Shown piece after piece: positions 7,820-35,729 of a DNA stretch of 35,838 bases (positions are counted from its first letter, which is position 1; each line of letters begins with the position of its first letter). The stretch is taken from assembly GCA_030153935.1 (NCBI GenBank), contig JASKKX010000014.1:1-35838 (forward strand), in the 5' to 3' direction. The position numbers and the translations under genes are program-made. The notes under the pieces were generated by a model. The model searched no databases. It was given only the letters and a program-made list of their open reading frames with translations, and was not told where the DNA came from. The DNA comes from Verrucomicrobiota bacterium (GTDB taxonomy: Bacteria > Verrucomicrobiota > Kiritimatiellia > Kiritimatiellales > Tichowtungiaceae).

Positions 7820-8021
7820 ATCCCGCCTGCCGCCGACCGGTCAAACCGTCGACGTCTCAACCCTTGGAACCGGCGGCGGGTTGTTTCTCCAGGGAGTGGA
7901 AACTTTGCTCTGCGGATTAAACTCATTGTAAAAAAGGCCTGCGCGAAGCGGAACGCGGACGAATGACGCAGGGACGGAACCGAGGGGAAAACCCGGCGGA
8001 TTTCTATCCAAATCAAAAGCA

Positions 8022-8774
8022 TCACCAGAACCAGTAAGCACCGGTATAGACAGCATACCAGCCGAGCAGCCCGTTGGTGAGCGCGTGCGCCCAGACAGCG
8101 GCCCAGATATCGCGGGTACGAACCATCAACGCGGTGTAGAGCAATCCGCAGAGAAATCCCATCAGCCATTCGTTGTGTTCAAGAGCGAAGATAACCGACA
8201 CCAGAACGCACATTTTAACGTTCATCACGCCGAGTCTTTTTTTGAAAAAAGGACTTCCCTGCATCCAGCGATAGAGAAAGCCGCGAAACATGAATTCCTC
8301 GATCGCACTGATCACAACGGTGGTTCCCAGCATATGAATCCAGAAAAGCGGCCAGCCGGTCGCGCGCGGATCATAGTGATACAGCCCGTTTGAGCCCAGT
8401 TCGAGCGGCTCGCGCAGTTTGCCGAAGCGTGTCAGCTGAACGAAATAACGTTCGTAAAATTCGCTGATTTTCGGAAAGAATCTCTTGAAGATTTCTGATT
8501 CGAATCCGATCCATAGAATAAAGACCAAACTACCGACCGCCAGAGCCGGCAGAATACTTTTCATTTTCGGCCGCTCATACCAGCGCCACGGACGGAAGAC
8601 CAGTAACAGGACAAGTCCTCCCAGAGTCTGAACGGCATAACGGATTCCGGACGGGTCCCCCAGCAAAGACATCATCAGAAGCCAGGCAAGAAACGGAACG
8701 GTATGGGCCCAGACCGCCCGGGTGTTTTCCCGATCCAGTTCAGCCGTCCAGTTGATGTCAGTTTCAGCAGACAT
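8022..8774 (-). CDS. CPBP/CAAX prenyl protease-related intramembrane protease
   Basis: ISAIEEFMFRGFLYRWMQ (EExxxR motif), LVSVIFALEHNEWLMGFLCGLLY and IWAAVWAHALTNGLLG, multi-TM. Met at 8774 (MSAETDINWTAELDREN) is a more likely start than 8843. Confidence 0.82.
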   Translation of the reverse strand: MSAETDINWTAELDRENTRAVWAHTVPFLAWLLMMSLLGDPSGIRYAVQTLGGLVLLLVFRPWRWYERPKMKSILPALAVGSLVFILWIGFESEIFKRFFPKISEFYERYFVQLTRFGKLREPLELGSNGLYHYDPRATGWPLFWIHMLGTTVVISAIEEFMFRGFLYRWMQGSPFFKKRLGVMNVKMCVLVSVIFALEHNEWLMGFLCGLLYTALMVRTRDIWAAVWAHALTNGLLGWYAVYTGAYWFW

Positions 8775-9165
8775 GCGGAGAAAGTAGTCCAACCTCGGTA
8801 AAGGACAAAGCAAAAACAGGCAGAACAGGCACATCCAATCCAACGACCGGAGAACCGTGCTGCAGGCTCTATTCCTTGCAGCAAAGCAAACCGAAACATC
8901 TGTATGCAGAAAAAATCCATCTGCGGATCTTTCCGTGGAGAAAGGAAAGAAAGGGATGTCAAACGGTCAATTTAAAGCGGGACATGGATCCCGGATCGAC
9001 AGTATAATTTTCGGAATATTAAAAAAAGAAATTGAAACCCGGAAGGATATTCAAAGTCGGTAAGATAAAGACGCTGAACCGAGTGCAACTGTGAAAACCG
9101 ACTGATTCCGTTCTTCGGGATTTTTTTCGAACCAATCCTTTCAACAAAGCAAAAAACAAGGAGAG

Positions 9166-10002
9166 ATGATGAGCGCGGAGATCAAGAAGCTGAGCACCAA
9201 GGCTCAGGCCGCAGCGGCGGAACGCTATGCCGCATTGTATAAAAAAGCCTTACCCGGTTCCGGCGGCATTGAAAAATCTCGAATTGAAATCGCAACCTTT
9301 AACCGCTCTTCAACGCTTGAAGAATTCCAGAAAGTCGGACTGGGACTGGAAACCGTCGTGATTTTCCGGGATGAATCCGGATTGGGTCATACAGGAAAAA
9401 TTCTGATGAATCTGCCGGGGCAGCTGCTGCTGGAACACAGTCATGTGGACACCTTTGTACTCAGGAAAGAAGCAACCCTTCCGGATGAATTTATAAAACT
9501 CTCTGAACTGATCAACGGCTTCCGCGGAATCGTCCAATACAACAGCGACGGATCTGTAATCTGTGACCCGACCGGAAATCCGCAATACATCTATCCGGAA
9601 ACCGATTATCAGACCGTGCAGGCAAAAGACGGCCTGACGGCCTATCCGGCGGGGCAGACTGAAGACATTGTCAAAATTTTTCCCGGAAAATCAGAAACCT
9701 TCAAGGCAATTTACGGTGACGGAGTGCTGTTTGCCGATACAGCCCAAGTGGTCTATACGCCGCCCGGGATAAATCCGGATCAGATTCCGGAAAAACTCCT
9801 TCCCCTGACTGAAGAAGTGCGGAACGAACAGGCGATTACAACAAAACGGATGATCTATCTGACTCAAGGGATGAATGTGCTGCTGCCGAAAAACACACGG
9901 CATGCCTTTCTCGGCGGTTTAAACGGATGCGTTTATCTCGAGTTTTCCACTCCCTCTATGGATGAAGCGGATCGGTACACAGACAAAAGGGTTATTCGAT
10001 GA
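9166..10002 (+). CDS. Cupin-type sugar isomerase-like protein (D-lyxose ketol-isomerase-like)
   Basis: Cupin metal/loop signatures LLLEHSHVDTF and LLPKNTRHAFLGGLNGCVYLEFSTPSMDEADRYTDKRVIR. RBS aaggagag upstream. Confidence 0.55.
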   Translation: MMSAEIKKLSTKAQAAAAERYAALYKKALPGSGGIEKSRIEIATFNRSSTLEEFQKVGLGLETVVIFRDESGLGHTGKILMNLPGQLLLEHSHVDTFVLRKEATLPDEFIKLSELINGFRGIVQYNSDGSVICDPTGNPQYIYPETDYQTVQAKDGLTAYPAGQTEDIVKIFPGKSETFKAIYGDGVLFADTAQVVYTPPGINPDQIPEKLLPLTEEVRNEQAITTKRMIYLTQGMNVLLPKNTRHAFLGGLNGCVYLEFSTPSMDEADRYTDKRVIR

Positions 10003-11198
10003 ATCGCACGTATACAGGATTCGGATTCGGGGCGATTCAGTCCGGTTTACTGCTGTACGAAGCCTTTCGCAGCGGAAATTTTTCGCGTTTGGTTGTGGCA
10101 GAGGTGATTCCGGAAGTCATCGCCGCAGTTCGCGAGGCTAATGGTTATTTCCTGAATATTGCGACAGAAAACGGAATTGAACATCATTTCATCGAAGGAA
10201 TTGAAATCTATAATCCGGCGGTTCCCGCTGAAGCAGAACAACTGGTTGCGGCGCTGGCTGAATCGCAGGAGATCGGAACCGCACTGCCCAGCATTGATTT
10301 TTTCACCCGCGGATCGCCGGCGGTTGCCGATCTTCTGCGAAAGGCCTTTACCGCCAAGCTGAATGATCCGGCGCTGCCGGATGCGGTTGTGTATACTGCC
10401 GAAAACAATAACCATGCCGCGGAACTGCTCGAAAAATCCGTTGGGCTAAACCTCGATGGCAGAGTGCAGTTTTTAAATACGGTTGTCGGGAAAATGAGCG
10501 GTGTGGCCACCGATGAAAAACAGATCGAAGAGGATGCTCTGGCGCGCGTAACTCCCGCCGCAGATCGCGCCTTTCTGGTGGAAGAGTTCAATCGGATTCT
10601 GATCACAAAGATTAAACTGTCCGGATTCCGACGCGGTATCGAAGTGTTCGCAGAAAAGGATGATCTTCTCCCGTTTGAAGAGGCCAAACTTTACGGACAC
10701 AATGCGGTACATGCCTTGATCGGTTATCGGGCAAATGAAAAAGGATGCCGCTACATGTCAGAGGTATCTTCTTTTCCTGAAATTACGGGAGCCGCCCGGC
10801 AGGCATTCCTACATGAATCCGGCGCGGCGCTGATTAAAAAATACGCCGGACTCGATCCGCTGTTCACGCCCGACGGATTTAAGGAATATGCCGATGATCT
10901 GCTGAAGCGGATGATGAACCCGAACCTCCGGGATCAGGTGGAACGAGTCATTCGTGACCCGCGCCGCAAACTGGGATGGAATGATCGCCTGATCGGAACC
11001 ATGCGGCTGGCAATCGCGCAGAAAATCAGCCCGGATCACTTCGCCGCTGCGGCAAGGGCGGCTCTCCACTGTCTGTCGGAGCAGGAAAACACAACCGACA
11101 GTTCACAGCTGCTCACGGAAATCTGGGCGAAAGACAACCCTTCCGGCGAAGAAGAGGCCTCCGTGCGTAAAATGATTTTCTCTAACCAACACCCCTGA
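9999..11198 (+). CDS. Mannitol-1-phosphate 5-dehydrogenase/mannitol dehydrogenase-like polyol dehydrogenase
   Basis: GFGFGAIQSGLLLYEAFRSGNFSRLVVAEVIPEVIAAVREANGYFLNIA (nucleotide-binding N-terminus), VYTAENNNHAAELLEKSV, VQFLNTVVGKMS. 4-bp overlap (ATGA) with the upstream gene. Confidence 0.7.
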   Translation: MNRTYTGFGFGAIQSGLLLYEAFRSGNFSRLVVAEVIPEVIAAVREANGYFLNIATENGIEHHFIEGIEIYNPAVPAEAEQLVAALAESQEIGTALPSIDFFTRGSPAVADLLRKAFTAKLNDPALPDAVVYTAENNNHAAELLEKSVGLNLDGRVQFLNTVVGKMSGVATDEKQIEEDALARVTPAADRAFLVEEFNRILITKIKLSGFRRGIEVFAEKDDLLPFEEAKLYGHNAVHALIGYRANEKGCRYMSEVSSFPEITGAARQAFLHESGAALIKKYAGLDPLFTPDGFKEYADDLLKRMMNPNLRDQVERVIRDPRRKLGWNDRLIGTMRLAIAQKISPDHFAAAARAALHCLSEQENTTDSSQLLTEIWAKDNPSGEEEASVRKMIFSNQHP

Positions 11199-28540: not shown

Positions 28541-29362
28541 TCAGCTCACCCCCCCCGACAACGCGTTCCGGATCTGCATCAGCCGCTGGTCATATTCCTG
28601 CGGCGTCACCAGATAGGGGTGGCATCGCTTCCCGGAAAGCTCCTCGGCACGGCGCATCAGGTCGGGATGGGGATTGAGCACGGCCAGCATCAGATCCCCT
28701 CCCACCTGAGCAAACGGAAGTGCACCGTGATGGCTGATAAAATCCAACGGAAGCACTTCCCGGAGCTCCTCGCGCTCCTCATAGCGGCTCAAAGCCATCA
28801 CCGGAACCCGCTTCTTCCAACAGAGATGGGTCATCAGCCGGTCAAAACGGCTGAAGTTTCGATCCTGCAGGATGTGCAGTGCCGACACCGGAACACTCCC
28901 CTCCCGCGACGACAATTCGGTGAGATCGTGCAGCAGGTTGGAATATTCCTCCTGCGAAAGGATTTCATCCTGGAACAGTTCCCAGGCCAATGCCATTTCA
29001 GATTCGATTCCTGTCGCCCGTCCAGGCGGCGGCTGAACCGGCCCGGCCGGTTCATTCATCAGTTCCACCACCATCTGCAGCTCCTGAAGACGATCCATAC
29101 GCTTCTGAACCTCCGGCATCTCATCGAGAATCGACGCATACTGATTCAGTACGAAACGGATCATTTCCATGTTCTGTGTTGCGCGCGCCTGGTCATCCAT
29201 CTGCGTCAGGCAGTCAAACGCCTTTTCCGGAAGTTCCAGCTTGAGATGGGTTTCATACAGCGCGCGCAGCGTGAAAAAATCGTCAGGCATCACTTCAAGA
29301 ATCTGCTGAAGCATCTCGGCCGTCTGCTGAAGGGCCTCTCTGGAATCAGTCGCCTCGCTCAT
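28541..29362 (-). CDS. Stand-alone GspE/MshE N-terminal-domain-like protein with helical N-terminal half
   Basis: C-terminal LPLDFISHHGALPFAQVGGDLMLAVLNPHPDLMRRAEELSGKRCHPYLVTPQEYDQRLMQI matches the T2SSE_N/MshEN pattern (I/L..A...LPL...G..L.VA..DP). No ATPase domain. Start 29362 preceded by aggagagagg. Confidence 0.65.
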   Translation of the reverse strand: MSEATDSREALQQTAEMLQQILEVMPDDFFTLRALYETHLKLELPEKAFDCLTQMDDQARATQNMEMIRFVLNQYASILDEMPEVQKRMDRLQELQMVVELMNEPAGPVQPPPGRATGIESEMALAWELFQDEILSQEEYSNLLHDLTELSSREGSVPVSALHILQDRNFSRFDRLMTHLCWKKRVPVMALSRYEEREELREVLPLDFISHHGALPFAQVGGDLMLAVLNPHPDLMRRAEELSGKRCHPYLVTPQEYDQRLMQIRNALSGGVS

Positions 29363-29578
29363 AACCTCTCTCCTTTTATTAAACTCTGGCCAGAGCGGAG
29401 CAGGATTTGTGCCGTGCGGCATATTCTCTTTTTCCAGGATATTGGAAAAAGATTCTCATTTTTTACAAAGGATGGGGAAACCGGCGGCGGCAAAAACCCG
29501 GCAACGGCCGCTGTTTTCCCGCTCCGGCCCTCTCCAGGCTTGTTTCCATGCTTTGAAAAGCCTACCGTCCATTGTCCC

Positions 29579-29615: not shown

Positions 29616-31328
29616 ATGATGAGTGATCACACCTACAGAACGCTTATGGAAGTTCTATCCGCCCGGTTTCCGGTTTCAACGGAAGCTCTGAGCGCGGCAC
29701 AGGCGGAGGCGGAAAAAAGCGGAAACCCGCTTGAGGAGGTGCTGGTTGAGCAGGGAACGGTGCCTGCGGAAACGATGCTGCTGGCCAAAGCGGACTATCT
29801 GGAGATGACTCCGGTCAGCCTGGATGGGTTCAGTCCTGACAGTTCGCTTGTGGAACTGCTGCCGCGCTCCACCTGGATTCAGCTCAAGATGCTGCCGCTG
29901 TGTAAAACCGGCAAACTGCTCACTGTGGCGGTCGCCGATCCCTTCAATATTATGGGCATCGAAAATCTGAAGACCCAGATCGATTATCAGGTATTCCCCG
30001 TTATCGCCGACGCCAGGGATCTCCTCAGCTCGCTGGAGGGCGCCGCAAAGGAGTCTTCGGTTGCACTGGAAGATATTCTCAAGGACATGGAGGACGACAG
30101 CGAACTGGAAGTCGACCAGGAGGTGGCCCATGCCGACAACCTCGATGAAATGCTCGACAGCTCCAAAGACGCCCCGGTGATTCGCATCGTCAACTCGATT
30201 CTGATTGAAGCGCTGCGCAAACAGGCCAGTGATATTCATATTGAACCGATGGAAAAGAAAATCCGCCTGCGCTACCGCGTCGATGGAGTGCTTTACGAAA
30301 ATCCCGGCCCGCCGAAGAGTGTGCAGTCGGCCATTTCATCGCGCATAAAAATCATGTCAAACCTCGATATCGCGGAGCGGCGCATTCCGCAGGACGGGCG
30401 CTTTAAGATCAAGGCGCTCGGCAAAGAAGTGGATCTGCGGGTAAGTTATCTGCCGACGGTGCACGGCGAGAAAATCGTGATGCGTATTCTCGACAAAAGC
30501 GCCCTCGCTCCAAGCCTGGAAGCTCTCGGACTGGAACAGAAGGCCTTGGAAGATCTGCACTATGCCATCCGCAAGCCGCATGGCATGATGCTGGTGACCG
30601 GACCGACCGGTTCCGGAAAAACCACAACGCTCTATTCAGCTCTTCAGGAACTGAATAAAGAGGACGTGAACATCATTACGGTAGAAGATCCGGTGGAATA
30701 TCAGCTCGGCGGAATCAACCAGGTTCAGGCCCGGCCCGAGGTCGGATTGACCTTCGCCTCCGGTCTGCGTTCGATCCTGCGCCAGGATCCGGACATTGTG
30801 ATGATCGGGGAAATCCGCGACCAGGAAACGGCTTCGATTGCAGTGCAGGCGGCGCTGACCGGACATCTGGTGCTGAGCACCCTGCACACCAATGACGCCG
30901 CCGGGGCTATTGCCCGTATGGCTTATATGGGCATTGAGCCGTTTCTGCTCTCTTCCTCGCTGGTGATGACCCAGGCGCAGCGGCTCTTCCGCAAACTCTG
31001 CCCCGTCTGCAAACAGCAGATCACCCTGCCGGAAAAAGTCCTGCGACGAAACCACCTCGACCCGGATCAGTTTAAAGAAGTGACCTTTTTCGCCGCGAAA
31101 GGCTGCCCCAAATGCGGAGGACTCGGCTATAAAGGCCGCGGTGCGCTCATGGAAATTCTGCTGCTGGACGATGAAATCAAAGCAAAAATCCTTGAAACAG
31201 CGGAAGCCGGCGCGCTGCGCGAACTGGCGGTGCGCAACGGCATGAAAACCCTGCGTGAAACCGGGCTGGCCAAAGTGCGCGAAGGACTGACGACCGTCGA
31301 TGAGATTTTGCGGGTAACAACAGAATAA
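29616..31328 (+). CDS. pilB: PilB/GspE-like type IV pilus extension ATPase
   Basis: MshEN-like N-terminus, ASDIHIEPMEKKIRLRYRVDGVL, GPTGSGKTTTLYSALQELN, EDPVEYQLGGINQVQ, RQDPDIVMIGEIRDQETASIAVQAALTGHLVLSTLHTNDA, Cys pairs CPVCKQQ and CPKCGGLGYKGR. Confidence 0.95.
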   Translation: MMSDHTYRTLMEVLSARFPVSTEALSAAQAEAEKSGNPLEEVLVEQGTVPAETMLLAKADYLEMTPVSLDGFSPDSSLVELLPRSTWIQLKMLPLCKTGKLLTVAVADPFNIMGIENLKTQIDYQVFPVIADARDLLSSLEGAAKESSVALEDILKDMEDDSELEVDQEVAHADNLDEMLDSSKDAPVIRIVNSILIEALRKQASDIHIEPMEKKIRLRYRVDGVLYENPGPPKSVQSAISSRIKIMSNLDIAERRIPQDGRFKIKALGKEVDLRVSYLPTVHGEKIVMRILDKSALAPSLEALGLEQKALEDLHYAIRKPHGMMLVTGPTGSGKTTTLYSALQELNKEDVNIITVEDPVEYQLGGINQVQARPEVGLTFASGLRSILRQDPDIVMIGEIRDQETASIAVQAALTGHLVLSTLHTNDAAGAIARMAYMGIEPFLLSSSLVMTQAQRLFRKLCPVCKQQITLPEKVLRRNHLDPDQFKEVTFFAAKGCPKCGGLGYKGRGALMEILLLDDEIKAKILETAEAGALRELAVRNGMKTLRETGLAKVREGLTTVDEILRVTTE

Positions 31329-31339
31329 ACGGGAAAACC

Positions 31340-32425
31340 ATGGCAGCAGTGAAAAAAAAAGGGGGCCGGAGAAAAGTCAGCGGTGCGCGGAAAGTCCGGC
31401 TCAAGGAGCTCCCTATCTATACCCGGCAGCTGGCGGCAATGCTCTCTTCCGGCATGCCGCTGGTGCAGTCAATCACAGCACTCGAAGAGCAGACCGAGAA
31501 CAAAAACTTTCGCGGAGTGCTCACCGGTGTGCGCACGGATGTTGAAGGGGGCGCCATGTATTCCGATTCGCTGGGGAAATATCCGCAGGTATTCGATGAA
31601 CTCTATGTGAATATGATGCGGGCCGGCGAAACCGGAGGAATGCTCGCCGAAACCTGTGATCGCGTCGCCGTATTTCTGGAAGAATCAAACCGCCTGCGCT
31701 CAAAGGTAAAGTCAGCCATGATGTATCCAACGGTGGTGATCTGCGTGGCGGTGATCATTTCGATCGGGCTGATCGTCTTTATTGTCCCGACGTTTGCCAG
31801 TATGTTTGCCGGCTTTGGCGCCGATCTGCCCGGGCCGACCCAACTGCTGCTCGATATCAGCAACTTCATCCGCAGCTACTGGTATATTGTGGTCGCGACA
31901 ATTGCGGCGGCGGTATACAGCCTGCGCCGTTATGTCCGGACGGAAAAAGGCGGCTTTGCGCTGGATCTGTTCCGCCTGCGTTTTCCCTTGCTCGGCAAAC
32001 TGGTACGCAAAATCGCAATCACCCGTTTCGCTTCCACCTTCGCCCAGCTGCTGTCCAGCGGAGTGCCGATTATTCAGGCCATGAGTATTGTCGGCGTGGC
32101 GACCGGCAACAAGGTGATCGGTAAAGCCATCCTCGATGCCCGCGCCAGTGTCGAACAGGGCAACACGGTTTCGGCCACACTGAAAGGTAATAAAGAATTT
32201 CCCAGCATGCTGATTCACATGCTGTCGGCCGGCGAGCAGACCGGTAAAATGGAAGAGATGCTCAGTAAGCTGGCTCAGTTCTATCAGGAGGAAGTCAACA
32301 CCCTGCTTGAAGGACTCACCTCCATGCTTGAGCCGCTGCTGATGGTGGTGATTGGAGTGATGATCGGCGGAATCGTACTGGCCATGTTTATGCCGATTTT
32401 CAAGATGACCGAAGTGGCAATATAG
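31340..32425 (+). CDS. pilC: PilC/GspF-like inner-membrane platform protein
   Basis: LPIYTRQLAAMLSSGMPLVQSITALEEQ, VNMMRAGETGGMLAETCDRVAVFLEE, FASTFAQLLSSGVPIIQAMSIV, MLSAGEQTGKMEEMLSKLAQFYQEEV. Confidence 0.95.
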   Translation: MAAVKKKGGRRKVSGARKVRLKELPIYTRQLAAMLSSGMPLVQSITALEEQTENKNFRGVLTGVRTDVEGGAMYSDSLGKYPQVFDELYVNMMRAGETGGMLAETCDRVAVFLEESNRLRSKVKSAMMYPTVVICVAVIISIGLIVFIVPTFASMFAGFGADLPGPTQLLLDISNFIRSYWYIVVATIAAAVYSLRRYVRTEKGGFALDLFRLRFPLLGKLVRKIAITRFASTFAQLLSSGVPIIQAMSIVGVATGNKVIGKAILDARASVEQGNTVSATLKGNKEFPSMLIHMLSAGEQTGKMEEMLSKLAQFYQEEVNTLLEGLTSMLEPLLMVVIGVMIGGIVLAMFMPIFKMTEVAI

Positions 32426-32436
32426 GAATCATCACG

Positions 32437-33711
32437 ATGAATACAATCTCGCCGGACAGGGAATCGCGCGCTGTTTCGTGGGCGGTTATGATGGGGCTTC
32501 TCGGGGGGCGGCTGGCCATCATCAGTGGATTTCTGATCGTTCTTTCCTTTGTGCTCAAACACGACAGCATCGCATTCTATGCATTCATGGCTTTCTCCTA
32601 TATCATTACGATCCCCTATTCCCTCTGGATGCGAAACCAGGAGAAGATGCGCCAGCTCGCGCCGCTTCAGTTCCTGGTGGATCTCGTGTTCGTTTCCGGA
32701 CTGGTCTATTTTACCGACGGCATCGGCAACGACTTTCTGATTCTGCTCTACCCGCTGATCATCCTTTCGGCGGGGATCATCCTTCCGCTCCGGCAGACGG
32801 TTCAGATCACCGTGCTGGCGATTATCTCCTATACACTGGTGATTCTGCTGATGTCGCAGAACATTCTGGTTCACTATCCCGCATCCGGCACGGCTCCGTC
32901 CTTTCGGGATATGCCGGGGGCCATGGCACTGCGTCTTTCTGTTTTCATTTTCTTCGGGATCGCCAGCGCATATGTTTCACGCCGTTGCGATTATATCAGT
33001 AAAAAAGAAAAACAGTTCCGGGACATCACGCAGATTATTTTTAAGAATGTTAAAACCGGCCTGCTGCTGCTGGATGAGAACGATCAGATTCTGATGGCCA
33101 ACGGCCGTGCCTGCATCCTGCTGGGACGCGACGAGCCGGAATTGATCGGAAAAGCACTTGCCTCGGTTCATCTCAAGCCTTCTGAAGTCAAAAACGGCGA
33201 CCCCGATCTGTGCGGCGCGGCCGATTATTTCTATCGTGCTGACGGCTCTGTATTCCCTGTGGGGATCGAAGAGGCCCGTCTTACCCTGCCCTCCGAGGCG
33301 GTTCCGAATGCCCGCGCCGTGACAAACGGGATGGTGGACGCACGCATCCTCAACTTTAACGACCTCTCGTCTTTCATCCGGCTGCAGAAACAGAACCGTC
33401 AGCTTGAACGGATCCATGCCGCCGCGAACATGGCCAAAGAGATCGCACAACAGATCCGCACTCCGCTCACCGGAATCTCCTGTGCGATTCAGCTTCTGCG
33501 GTTCGATCTGACATCCGAAATCGAAAAGAAACCTATAGAAGAGCGGGAAGAACTCTATCGTCAAATCGTTGAAGAATCCATTCGGATGGATAAAGTCATC
33601 CAGAACTTTCTCAATTATGCCGAATTTTCCTCGCAAGACGTCCGGGATCTGATTCAAATGGATATCGACCAGAAAGTATCGCGCGATTCACAAATCGGAA
33701 AAAAAGACTGA
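32437..33711 (+). CDS. PilS-like membrane sensor protein with degenerate HisKA region and no HATPase domain
   Basis: Multi-TM N-terminus, PAS-like middle (VKTGLLLLDENDQILMANGRACILLGRDEPELIGK), then AANMAKEIAQQIRTPLTGISCAIQLLRFDL...IVEESIRMDKVIQNFLNYAEF and a stop at 33711. Confidence 0.8.
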   Translation: MNTISPDRESRAVSWAVMMGLLGGRLAIISGFLIVLSFVLKHDSIAFYAFMAFSYIITIPYSLWMRNQEKMRQLAPLQFLVDLVFVSGLVYFTDGIGNDFLILLYPLIILSAGIILPLRQTVQITVLAIISYTLVILLMSQNILVHYPASGTAPSFRDMPGAMALRLSVFIFFGIASAYVSRRCDYISKKEKQFRDITQIIFKNVKTGLLLLDENDQILMANGRACILLGRDEPELIGKALASVHLKPSEVKNGDPDLCGAADYFYRADGSVFPVGIEEARLTLPSEAVPNARAVTNGMVDARILNFNDLSSFIRLQKQNRQLERIHAAANMAKEIAQQIRTPLTGISCAIQLLRFDLTSEIEKKPIEEREELYRQIVEESIRMDKVIQNFLNYAEFSSQDVRDLIQMDIDQKVSRDSQIGKKD

Positions 33712-33849: not shown

Positions 33850-35226
33850 ATGCCGCGAATTCTCATCGTAGACGACGAACCGACGATCCTGAACCTTCTC
33901 AATAAAATTCTTGTCGGGCAGAACTATGAAGTAATTCCCGCCAGCAGCGGTGAAAAGGCGATCGAGCTTCTTGAAACGGAAAAATTCGATTTAATGATTT
34001 CGGATATCAACATGGCTCCGATCGACGGGATGGAGCTGCTGCATAAAGCGACATCCTCTTATCCCGACATGGGGGTCATCATCCTCACGGCCTACGGCAC
34101 CGTCGCCACGGCAGTGGAAGCCATGAAACAGGGGGCATTCGACTATATCACCAAACCGTTCAAACTCGATGAACTGGTTCTCACCACCCGGCGGGCCCTG
34201 GAATATTATAACGCCATCAGTGAAAACAAAGACCTTAAAGCACGACTGGAACACAAAGAGCATCTCGAAGGTATTGTGGCCGAGAGTCCGGGAATGCGTA
34301 AAGTCTGCGACATGATTGAACGCGTGGCCCCGACCACCACCACGGTTCTTGTCTATGGGGAAAGCGGGACGGGGAAAGAGCTGATCGCCCGCGCCCTGCA
34401 CCGCTACAGTCCGCGCAAAGACGAAACCTTCATGGCCATCAACTGCGCCGCGCTGCCCGCCCCGCTGATGGAATCCGAACTGTTCGGCTATGTTAAAGGC
34501 GCGTTCACCGGGGCGAATGCCACCAAGCAGGGACTCTTCGAAACCGCACACAGCGGCACCCTGTTTCTGGATGAAATCGGCTCCATGCCGCTCGAAGTCC
34601 AGTCCAAACTCCTGCGGGTCCTGCAGGACAAACAGATCCGTAAAGTCGGCGGCTCCGACCACACCGAAGTGGATCTCCGCATCATTGCCGCCACCAACGA
34701 AAAACTTGAAACGCTGATTGAGCAGGGCCGGTTTCGCGAAGACCTTTATTACCGCCTCAGTGTCATCAGCATTGACATCCCGCCGCTGCGCAAGCGACCC
34801 GAAGACCTCCTGCCGCTGATCGACTATATTCTGCGGCGCGAACTCGGCCCGGACGCCGACCTGCCGTCGATCGATCACGAAGCGCAGAGCATTCTCGACA
34901 ACTACAACTGGCCTGGAAACGTCCGCGAACTGGAGAACGCCATTCAGCATGCGCTGACGTTTGCCCGGCAGGGAATGATCACCAAAGATACCTTGCCGGC
35001 CAAAATTGTCGGGACGGTCGAAGAGGGGATCCGGTCCGGGATCATCACCAGCCGGCACGACCGGTTCAAGGGGAAATCCCTGAAAGCTTTTCTGCACGAA
35101 AGAGAACGGGAATTTCTCCAGCGAACCATTGAAGACATGCATGGCGACAAGGAAAAAGCCGCCAATGAACTGGGGATCAGTCTGGCCACCCTGTACCGGA
35201 AACTGCCCCCGAAAGAGAAAAATTGA
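33850..35226 (+). CDS. NtrC/PilR-like sigma-54-dependent response regulator
   Basis: Receiver ILIVDDEPTILNLL...DLMISDINMAPIDGMELL...FDYITKPF; AAA+ GESGTGKELIARALH, ESELFGYVKGAFTGA, GTLFLDEIGSMPLEVQSKLLRVLQ; C-terminal HTH KEKAANELGISLATLYRKL. Confidence 0.95.
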   Translation: MPRILIVDDEPTILNLLNKILVGQNYEVIPASSGEKAIELLETEKFDLMISDINMAPIDGMELLHKATSSYPDMGVIILTAYGTVATAVEAMKQGAFDYITKPFKLDELVLTTRRALEYYNAISENKDLKARLEHKEHLEGIVAESPGMRKVCDMIERVAPTTTTVLVYGESGTGKELIARALHRYSPRKDETFMAINCAALPAPLMESELFGYVKGAFTGANATKQGLFETAHSGTLFLDEIGSMPLEVQSKLLRVLQDKQIRKVGGSDHTEVDLRIIAATNEKLETLIEQGRFREDLYYRLSVISIDIPPLRKRPEDLLPLIDYILRRELGPDADLPSIDHEAQSILDNYNWPGNVRELENAIQHALTFARQGMITKDTLPAKIVGTVEEGIRSGIITSRHDRFKGKSLKAFLHEREREFLQRTIEDMHGDKEKAANELGISLATLYRKLPPKEKN

Positions 35227-35271: not shown

Positions 35272-35288
35272 TTGGCGCGATTGTTGCT
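35272..35288 (+). promoter_or_regulatory. Sigma-54 (-24/-12) promoter of the pilin gene: TTGGCGCG-ATTG-TTGCT
   Basis: One mismatch to the TTGGCACG-N4-TTGCT consensus; GG at 35274-75 and GC at 35286-87, 12 bp apart; 94 bp upstream of the pilin ATG and directly downstream of a sigma-54 activator gene. Confidence 0.72.
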
Positions 35289-35381: not shown

Positions 35382-35729
35382 ATGAAAAAAACAAATAAGA
35401 AAACCAAAAAGGGGTTCACCCTGGTTGAAATCATGATCGTCGTGGCCATCATCGGCCTGCTGGCCGCCATCGGCGTGCCATCCGTTATGAACGCTTATTC
35501 CAACGCGCAGGAAAAAACCAGAATGCGCAATATTGCGGATATCGAAAAAGCCAAAGCCATGATGCTTCTGCCTGAGGATGCCGGAGGACTGGGTTATACT
35601 ACTAACGACACTGTTGACTCGACTAACATAATCAAGATGCTGAACATCGACGATTATTCAAAAATCGAAAAAGTGGGATCAGAAACGCTTGACCTTGGTG
35701 ACTTTAGTACAAGAGCTGAATACAAATAA
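35382..35729 (+). CDS. Type IV pilin/prepilin-type protein
   Basis: MKKTNKKTKKGFTLVEIMIVVAIIGLLAAIGVPSVMNAYSNAQEKTRMRNIADIEKAKAMM: classical K/G|FTLVE prepilin peptidase site and hydrophobic helix. Confidence 0.93.
   Translation: MKKTNKKTKKGFTLVEIMIVVAIIGLLAAIGVPSVMNAYSNAQEKTRMRNIADIEKAKAMMLLPEDAGGLGYTTNDTVDSTNIIKMLNIDDYSKIEKVGSETLDLGDFSTRAEYK

Follow-up and report, generated by a model that had tools for sequence, protein, structure and literature searches.

The PilS-like sensor in the pil gene cluster of this Verrucomicrobiota genome belongs to a family in which the ATPase domain (HATPase_c, the CA domain) is missing from all 40 members that could be checked, and the copy studied here has also lost the phospho-accepting His of its H-box. 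A sequence-only reading of this DNA had treated both losses as one event in one protein, but they differ in age: the loss of HATPase_c is old, while the His has been replaced in only two of 41 members, each at a tip of the tree. Judged by their domain content, PilS proteins of this family cannot autophosphorylate or serve as kinases. We suggest that they probably act on PilR from the membrane, by removing its phosphate or by binding it, and that the copy described here is probably a weakened member of this group.

The pil gene cluster

The window (the whole stretch of DNA analyzed, 35,838 nucleotides) makes up the whole of contig G000:C17 in a metagenome bin of 2.0 Mb and 93% completeness. Between positions 29616 and 35729 it carries pilB, pilC, pilS-like, pilR-like and pilin genes in sequence, all on the forward strand. 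The first gene encodes a PilB-like assembly ATPase of 570 aa (29616-31328; recognized by its place in the gene order and by counterparts in relatives that are 60-85% identical) and is followed by a gene for a PilC-like inner-membrane platform protein of 361 aa (31340-32425; gene order and comparison with relatives). The PilS-like sensor of 424 aa (32437-33711) directly adjoins a PilR-like sigma-54 activator of 458 aa (33850-35226), and the cluster ends with a pilA-like gene for a major pilin of 115 aa (35382-35729), identified by its pilin leader (KKGFTLVEIMIVVAIIGLLAA) and by synteny and presumed to be the target of PilR. The order pilB-pilC-pilS-pilR is kept widely among relatives, and in family f2 the linkage of pilS and pilR is so tight that the genes overlap. 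A divergent gene of 293 aa faces pilB on the reverse strand (28541-29422) and occupies the same place in relatives; its products share 34-39% identity even across families, and some weakly match the N-terminal region of PilB.

Domains of the PilS-like protein

The membrane part of the window protein (residues 15-204; 32479-33048) comprises six predicted transmembrane helices and a linker helix toward the PAS domain. It matches the six-TM PilS domain 6TM_PilS (PF25323) with an E-value of 2.6e-5 and 24.4 bits, just missing the Pfam cut-off of 27 bits; 28 of 29 family members match at E ≤ 0.1, several of them above the cut-off. The PAS domain (residues 208-309; 33058-33363) is recognized by PAS_8 right at the cut-off (E 1.5e-4), by its modelled strands and helices, and by fold matches to PAS sensors in the PDB. 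It is followed by the helical hairpin of the DHp domain (residues 311-395; 33367-33621), with a HisKA match at residues 331-396 (PF00512, E 1e-9) and two long modelled helices. Where an ATPase domain would be expected to start, the model contains only a short helical tail (residues 399-423; 33631-33705), part of which (FSPxD...LIxxD) is conserved across the order. No match to HATPase_c was obtained from Pfam for this protein even at E ≤ 1, and the 138 bases between its stop codon and the start of pilR are too few to encode such a domain. The predicted structure (m92c979f512a9; mean pLDDT 71.5, a modest value) shows the membrane helices, PAS fold, DHp hairpin and short C-terminal helix, and its fold matches are PAS-DHp kinases, headed by the Vibrio cholerae kinase VC2136 (9p6i). 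The description given in the sequence-only reading, of intact membrane and PAS-like portions in a protein that ends soon after the second HisKA helix and has no ATPase domain, is thus borne out.

Loss of the ATPase domain throughout the family

A search with the PilS-like protein (E ≤ 1e-10) gave hits in every one of the 14 genomes that represent the genus (with one copy cut short by a contig end) and in 33 of the 97 relatives. All of the 29 full-length sequences in our alignment (A1) matched HisKA in Pfam and none matched HATPase_c, nor was HATPase_c found with a local profile in 11 further members. The 40 checkable members come from five families within the class and three beyond it; the 41st (L031) runs out at a contig end before the position of the domain. 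In order neither to favour nor to disfavour copies with HATPase, we searched more widely with a profile of the N-terminal part, which had hits in 34 of the 347 class genomes and 19 of the 390 phylum genomes; no open frame among them was longer than 500 aa. Members outside the class (families f67, f75 and f76) keep the architecture, mostly in the order pilB-pilC-pilS-pilR. Since the domain is missing throughout the checkable family including these out-of-class members, its loss is ancient and fixed, and a recent truncation of the window gene is ruled out. Close relatives with both a full H-box and HATPase_c had been named beforehand as the finding that would point to truncation or misassembly; the relatives do have the His, but in none of them is there a HATPase.

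The class also contains two PilS-like kinases of full length (L152 and L153), which were rejected as orthologues because the adjoining PilR-like proteins are just 40-43% identical to PilR of the window and neither pilB nor pilC is nearby. No separate gene encoding only a HATPase (CA) domain was found inside the pil cluster of any relative examined.

A second subclade of HATPase-less PilS proteins, with the H-box HSxRNPLT, lies away from pilB and pilC (L178 6621-9351, L177 6086-7453, L179 5717-7075); in L178 the pilS gene overlaps a gene for a protein with 35% identity to PilR. One genome outside the class (G425) encodes three HATPase-less PilS paralogues. The third of these (L182 6448-7722) has a divergent H-box-like stretch, YRHSLLNALSP, and lies directly 5′ of a gene for a 1040-aa hybrid kinase that has a CA domain (7913-11035), possibly a natural split pair.

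H-box residues

The H-box of the window copy reads EIAQQIRTPLT. As had been noted from the letters alone, the position of the phospho-acceptor is occupied by Gln338 (CAA, 33448-33450), one base from a His codon, and the following acidic residue by Gln339 (CAG, 33451-33453). The first of these substitutions is exceptional in the family, where His is found in 39 of 41 members and Gln only in the window and in G037 (CAG). The two lie on separate branches and arose independently, and the replacement of His is recent and rare. Conservation, which had been raised for the Gln as well as for the truncation, holds for the truncation only. The second substitution is not special to the window but is a trait of its genus, in which the +1 position is Q in 12 of 13 members, R in one and acidic in none. 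Across all 41 members this residue is E in 20, Q in 13, S in four, V in two, and D and R in one each, with five changes of state on the tree. In 29 CA-bearing kinases, the best HisKA matches from four of these genomes, it is E or D without exception. The +4 residue, Thr342 in the window copy (ACT, 33460-33462), is T in 26 members, N in 13 and S in two.

In HisKA proteins that have been tested, the acid after the His is required for kinase activity only and the Thr or Asn at +4 for phosphatase activity only (PMC3510030). In CrdS of Myxococcus xanthus, both E372Q and H371A abolish kinase activity; the former leaves phosphatase activity at its full level and the latter lowers it modestly (PMC3510030). 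With T or N retained at +4 in 39 of 41 members beside a variable +1 residue, constraint thus weighs more heavily on the phosphatase residue than on the kinase residue. This relaxation is not universal, since family f2 retains the acid at +1. The DHp domain as such is under selection within the family: the His is kept in 39 of 41 members, and the +4 residue is T or N in 39 and S in the other two.

Divergence of the window copy

The DHp domain of the window copy is 71-73% identical to those of close species, which are 86-92% identical to each other; for the TM part the corresponding values are 78-81% and 83-89%. Otherwise invariant sites are altered in the window copy at six of 47 positions in the DHp domain (L314I, T320N, K327H, M336I, H338Q and G349C) versus one of 85 in the TM part (Fisher p 0.008; small counts, uncorrected), and a comparison of the window copy with the other species for DHp versus TM gave p 0.04 (likewise small counts, uncorrected). 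One other genome (G006) also has six of the 47 DHp sites altered, with its His intact. PilR of the window is faster-evolving than in relatives too, whereas no clear acceleration is seen for PilB or PilC. Among five window-specific changes in the PilR receiver is Ala56, Thr in the rest of the genus, four residues past Asp52 (34003-34020); PilR is speeding up alongside the DHp domain of PilS. The fast change of the DHp domain fits a relaxed or altered function following the loss of the His.

PilR, its promoter and the loss of pilS

The receiver of the window PilR retains D8/D9, D52 (34003-34005), T80 and K102, of which the DD, D and K had been noted in the sequence-only reading, and all of these residues are kept in the 30 aligned orthologues. 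Five of the 30 come from genomes that have no pilS, each with the phospho-acceptor intact, so the phosphate on PilR, if it matters, must have another source. In these genomes PilR would either be phosphorylated by something else or keep its receiver for another reason.

Upstream of pilA we found a −24/−12-like site of the sigma-54 type by pattern match (TGGCGCG-ATTG-TTGCT, 35273-35288, forward strand, about 110 bases 5′ of the start codon). It is the sole exact match in the window, in which about one match with at most one mismatch is expected by chance. The genome encodes one RpoN. Comparable sites lie at about −95 to −129 in some relatives and are missing in others, and because of this inconsistency the evidence for sigma-54 control of pilA in the window is suggestive only.

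In five genomes of family f2 (G014, G015, G020, G023 and G029) pilR lies immediately after pilC and the gap holds short fragments of pilS, and in G035 the tail of pilS alone remains. The remnants between pilC and pilR are located at L148 2388-2862 (G020), L147, L146, L149 and L150, and the tail before pilR at L217. In both G020 and G035 the remnant includes the C-terminal tail adjoining pilR, perhaps retained for translation of pilR. According to a weakly supported PilR tree, pilS was lost at least four times in f2, and G037, the other case of Gln in the H-box, groups with a pilS-less genome (SH-aLRT 93). Because several f2 genomes have deleted pilS yet retain pilR, the sensor is, by this comparison, dispensable. 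Together with the fast divergence of its DHp domain, the deletion of pilS in related lineages indicates that PilS of the window is probably weakened or decaying.

Possible role of the ATPase-less PilS

The window PilS is a member of an old clade in which the CA domain is gone and the membrane sensor, the PAS domain and the DHp domain persist beside PilR. We propose that, under the control of a signal, the DHp-only module of these proteins most likely binds PilR and strips it of phosphate; PilR would receive this phosphate from a different kinase or from a small phosphodonor. The window copy would probably be a weak phosphatase or a PilR-binding remnant heading for full loss of the gene, as in the sister lineages. 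We would give this explanation as a whole an even chance of being correct. A phosphatase or binding role is favoured over a kinase acting in trans because T or N at +4 is kept while the acid at +1 is lost. On the other side, the CA domain boosts the phosphatase activity of the HisKA proteins EnvZ and HK853 (PMC7005713), so a DHp-only phosphatase may be weak; and the His in 39 of 41 members counts against a pure phosphatase, which needs it less than a phosphotransfer protein does. His-bearing members may have a phosphotransfer role, since most of the family keeps this residue, which is helpful yet not strictly required for phosphatase activity.

The closest alternative for the window copy is plain decay, in which the gene has no function left and is headed for deletion. 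Gln in place of His, the fast change of the DHp domain, and the repeated deletions and remnants in the sister family would all be expected, but the frame of 424 codons is intact, the TM and PAS parts are conserved as in relatives or nearly so, and the Thr at +4 and the second DHp helix are retained, and we regard complete loss of function as rather unlikely.

It is unlikely, too, that the DHp domain takes part in a split kinase, its His acquiring phosphate from the CA domain of a separate kinase or from a phosphorylated receiver and relaying it to PilR much as Spo0B or ChpT would. Such a relay would account for the persistence of the His despite deep divergence, and potential donors are plentiful: the genome has 19 HATPase_c matches, several complete kinases among them; contig C99 carries an NtrB/NtrC-like pair and C5 two kinases in tandem, and the G425 paralogue adjoins a CA-bearing hybrid kinase. 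No candidate for the kinase of PilR in this genome could be singled out from sequence. The relay is impossible for the two Gln members, and the acid that activates the His is absent from the whole genus of the window and from other branches. Nor is a CA-only gene present in the pil cluster of any relative examined. The genome's only HATPase-only protein (182 aa) was considered as a partner and placed instead, together with a CBS-HATPase protein, in an [FeFe]-hydrogenase locus (L161, G000:C49:6000-16000).

We are similarly doubtful that PilS performs no chemistry and, as in DivL-like pseudokinases, only binds its partner, with the signal deciding how far PilR is held or titrated at the membrane. 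The tolerated loss of the His on two occasions and the tight linkage of pilS and pilR, up to overlap in f2, are compatible with this, and the pseudokinase DivL is known to have been repurposed for reading a response regulator (PMC4211667). However, binding alone needs neither a near-invariant His nor T or N at +4. An artefact of sequencing or assembly, which at this codon would take a single base in a metagenome bin, is a very improbable source of the Gln given the independent Gln of G037, the five other window-specific changes at otherwise invariant DHp sites nearby and the missing HATPase in all relatives.

The earlier view of a non-standard PilS/PilR pair is supported, as is the inability to autophosphorylate, and with a modulated PilR or a trans-acting kinase it had named the right kinds of explanation; it erred in merging the losses. 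The relaxed constraint on the DHp domain suggests that the window PilS is being weakened rather than being a refined pseudokinase. More tentatively, and with somewhat less than even confidence, we consider that the arrangement could be a design of the phylum: the sensor of the operon would be a dedicated membrane phosphatase or sequestering partner of PilR, the phosphate would be external, and the His and later the gene would have been lost in several lineages.

Two-component annotation usually assumes that the sensor of an operon is the kinase. A sensor in a fixed place beside its regulator, its kinase half gone in many families, is a natural test of whether the DHp domain by itself suffices to regulate a response regulator. 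The series from His kept through acid at +1 lost and His lost to gene lost offers natural variants with which the constraints of kinase, phosphotransfer and phosphatase function can be told apart. Where a gene pair of this phylum is annotated as PilS/PilR, it should not be taken to mean that PilS phosphorylates PilR.

Comparison with known systems

The family shares with the canonical PilS of Pseudomonas aeruginosa and M. xanthus the six-TM domain, PAS and HisKA, the adjoining sigma-54 activator PilR and the location in a pilus cluster upstream of pilA. It differs from them in that the HATPase_c with its N and G boxes is missing from every checkable member and, in the window copy, the phospho-acceptor His as well. 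Our literature searches, which most subscription papers lay beyond, returned no description of a HATPase-less PilS.

Spo0B and ChpT likewise have a DHp-type domain without a working CA domain, but they are soluble and sensorless and their His is essential; a phosphorylatable His is present in most of the PilS family, whereas two members, including the window copy with Gln, are without it. The Caulobacter pseudo-histidine kinase DivL keeps its CA domain, has Tyr at the position of the His and belongs to another family and pathway. Like the PilS family it is derived from a histidine kinase and has no autokinase chemistry, and it still meets a response regulator (PMC4211667). A DHp-only fragment of EnvZ reported to have phosphatase activity (cited in PMC5727384 and PMC3510030) resembles the family in having a DHp domain without CA and in the mechanism proposed here; it is a laboratory fragment and not a natural gene, and its His is present.

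Archaeal proteins described as "HisKA, no HATPase" or "possible incomplete histidine kinase," for which a phosphatase role has been suggested (PMC5847659), also combine N-terminal sensor domains with HisKA and have no HATPase. Their His is conserved, as it is in 39 of the 41 members here, while the window copy lacks it. In contrast to these archaeal proteins, the family described here is bacterial and membrane-bound; its members go with a single operon and a single response regulator, and they share one architecture that is conserved over much of a phylum.
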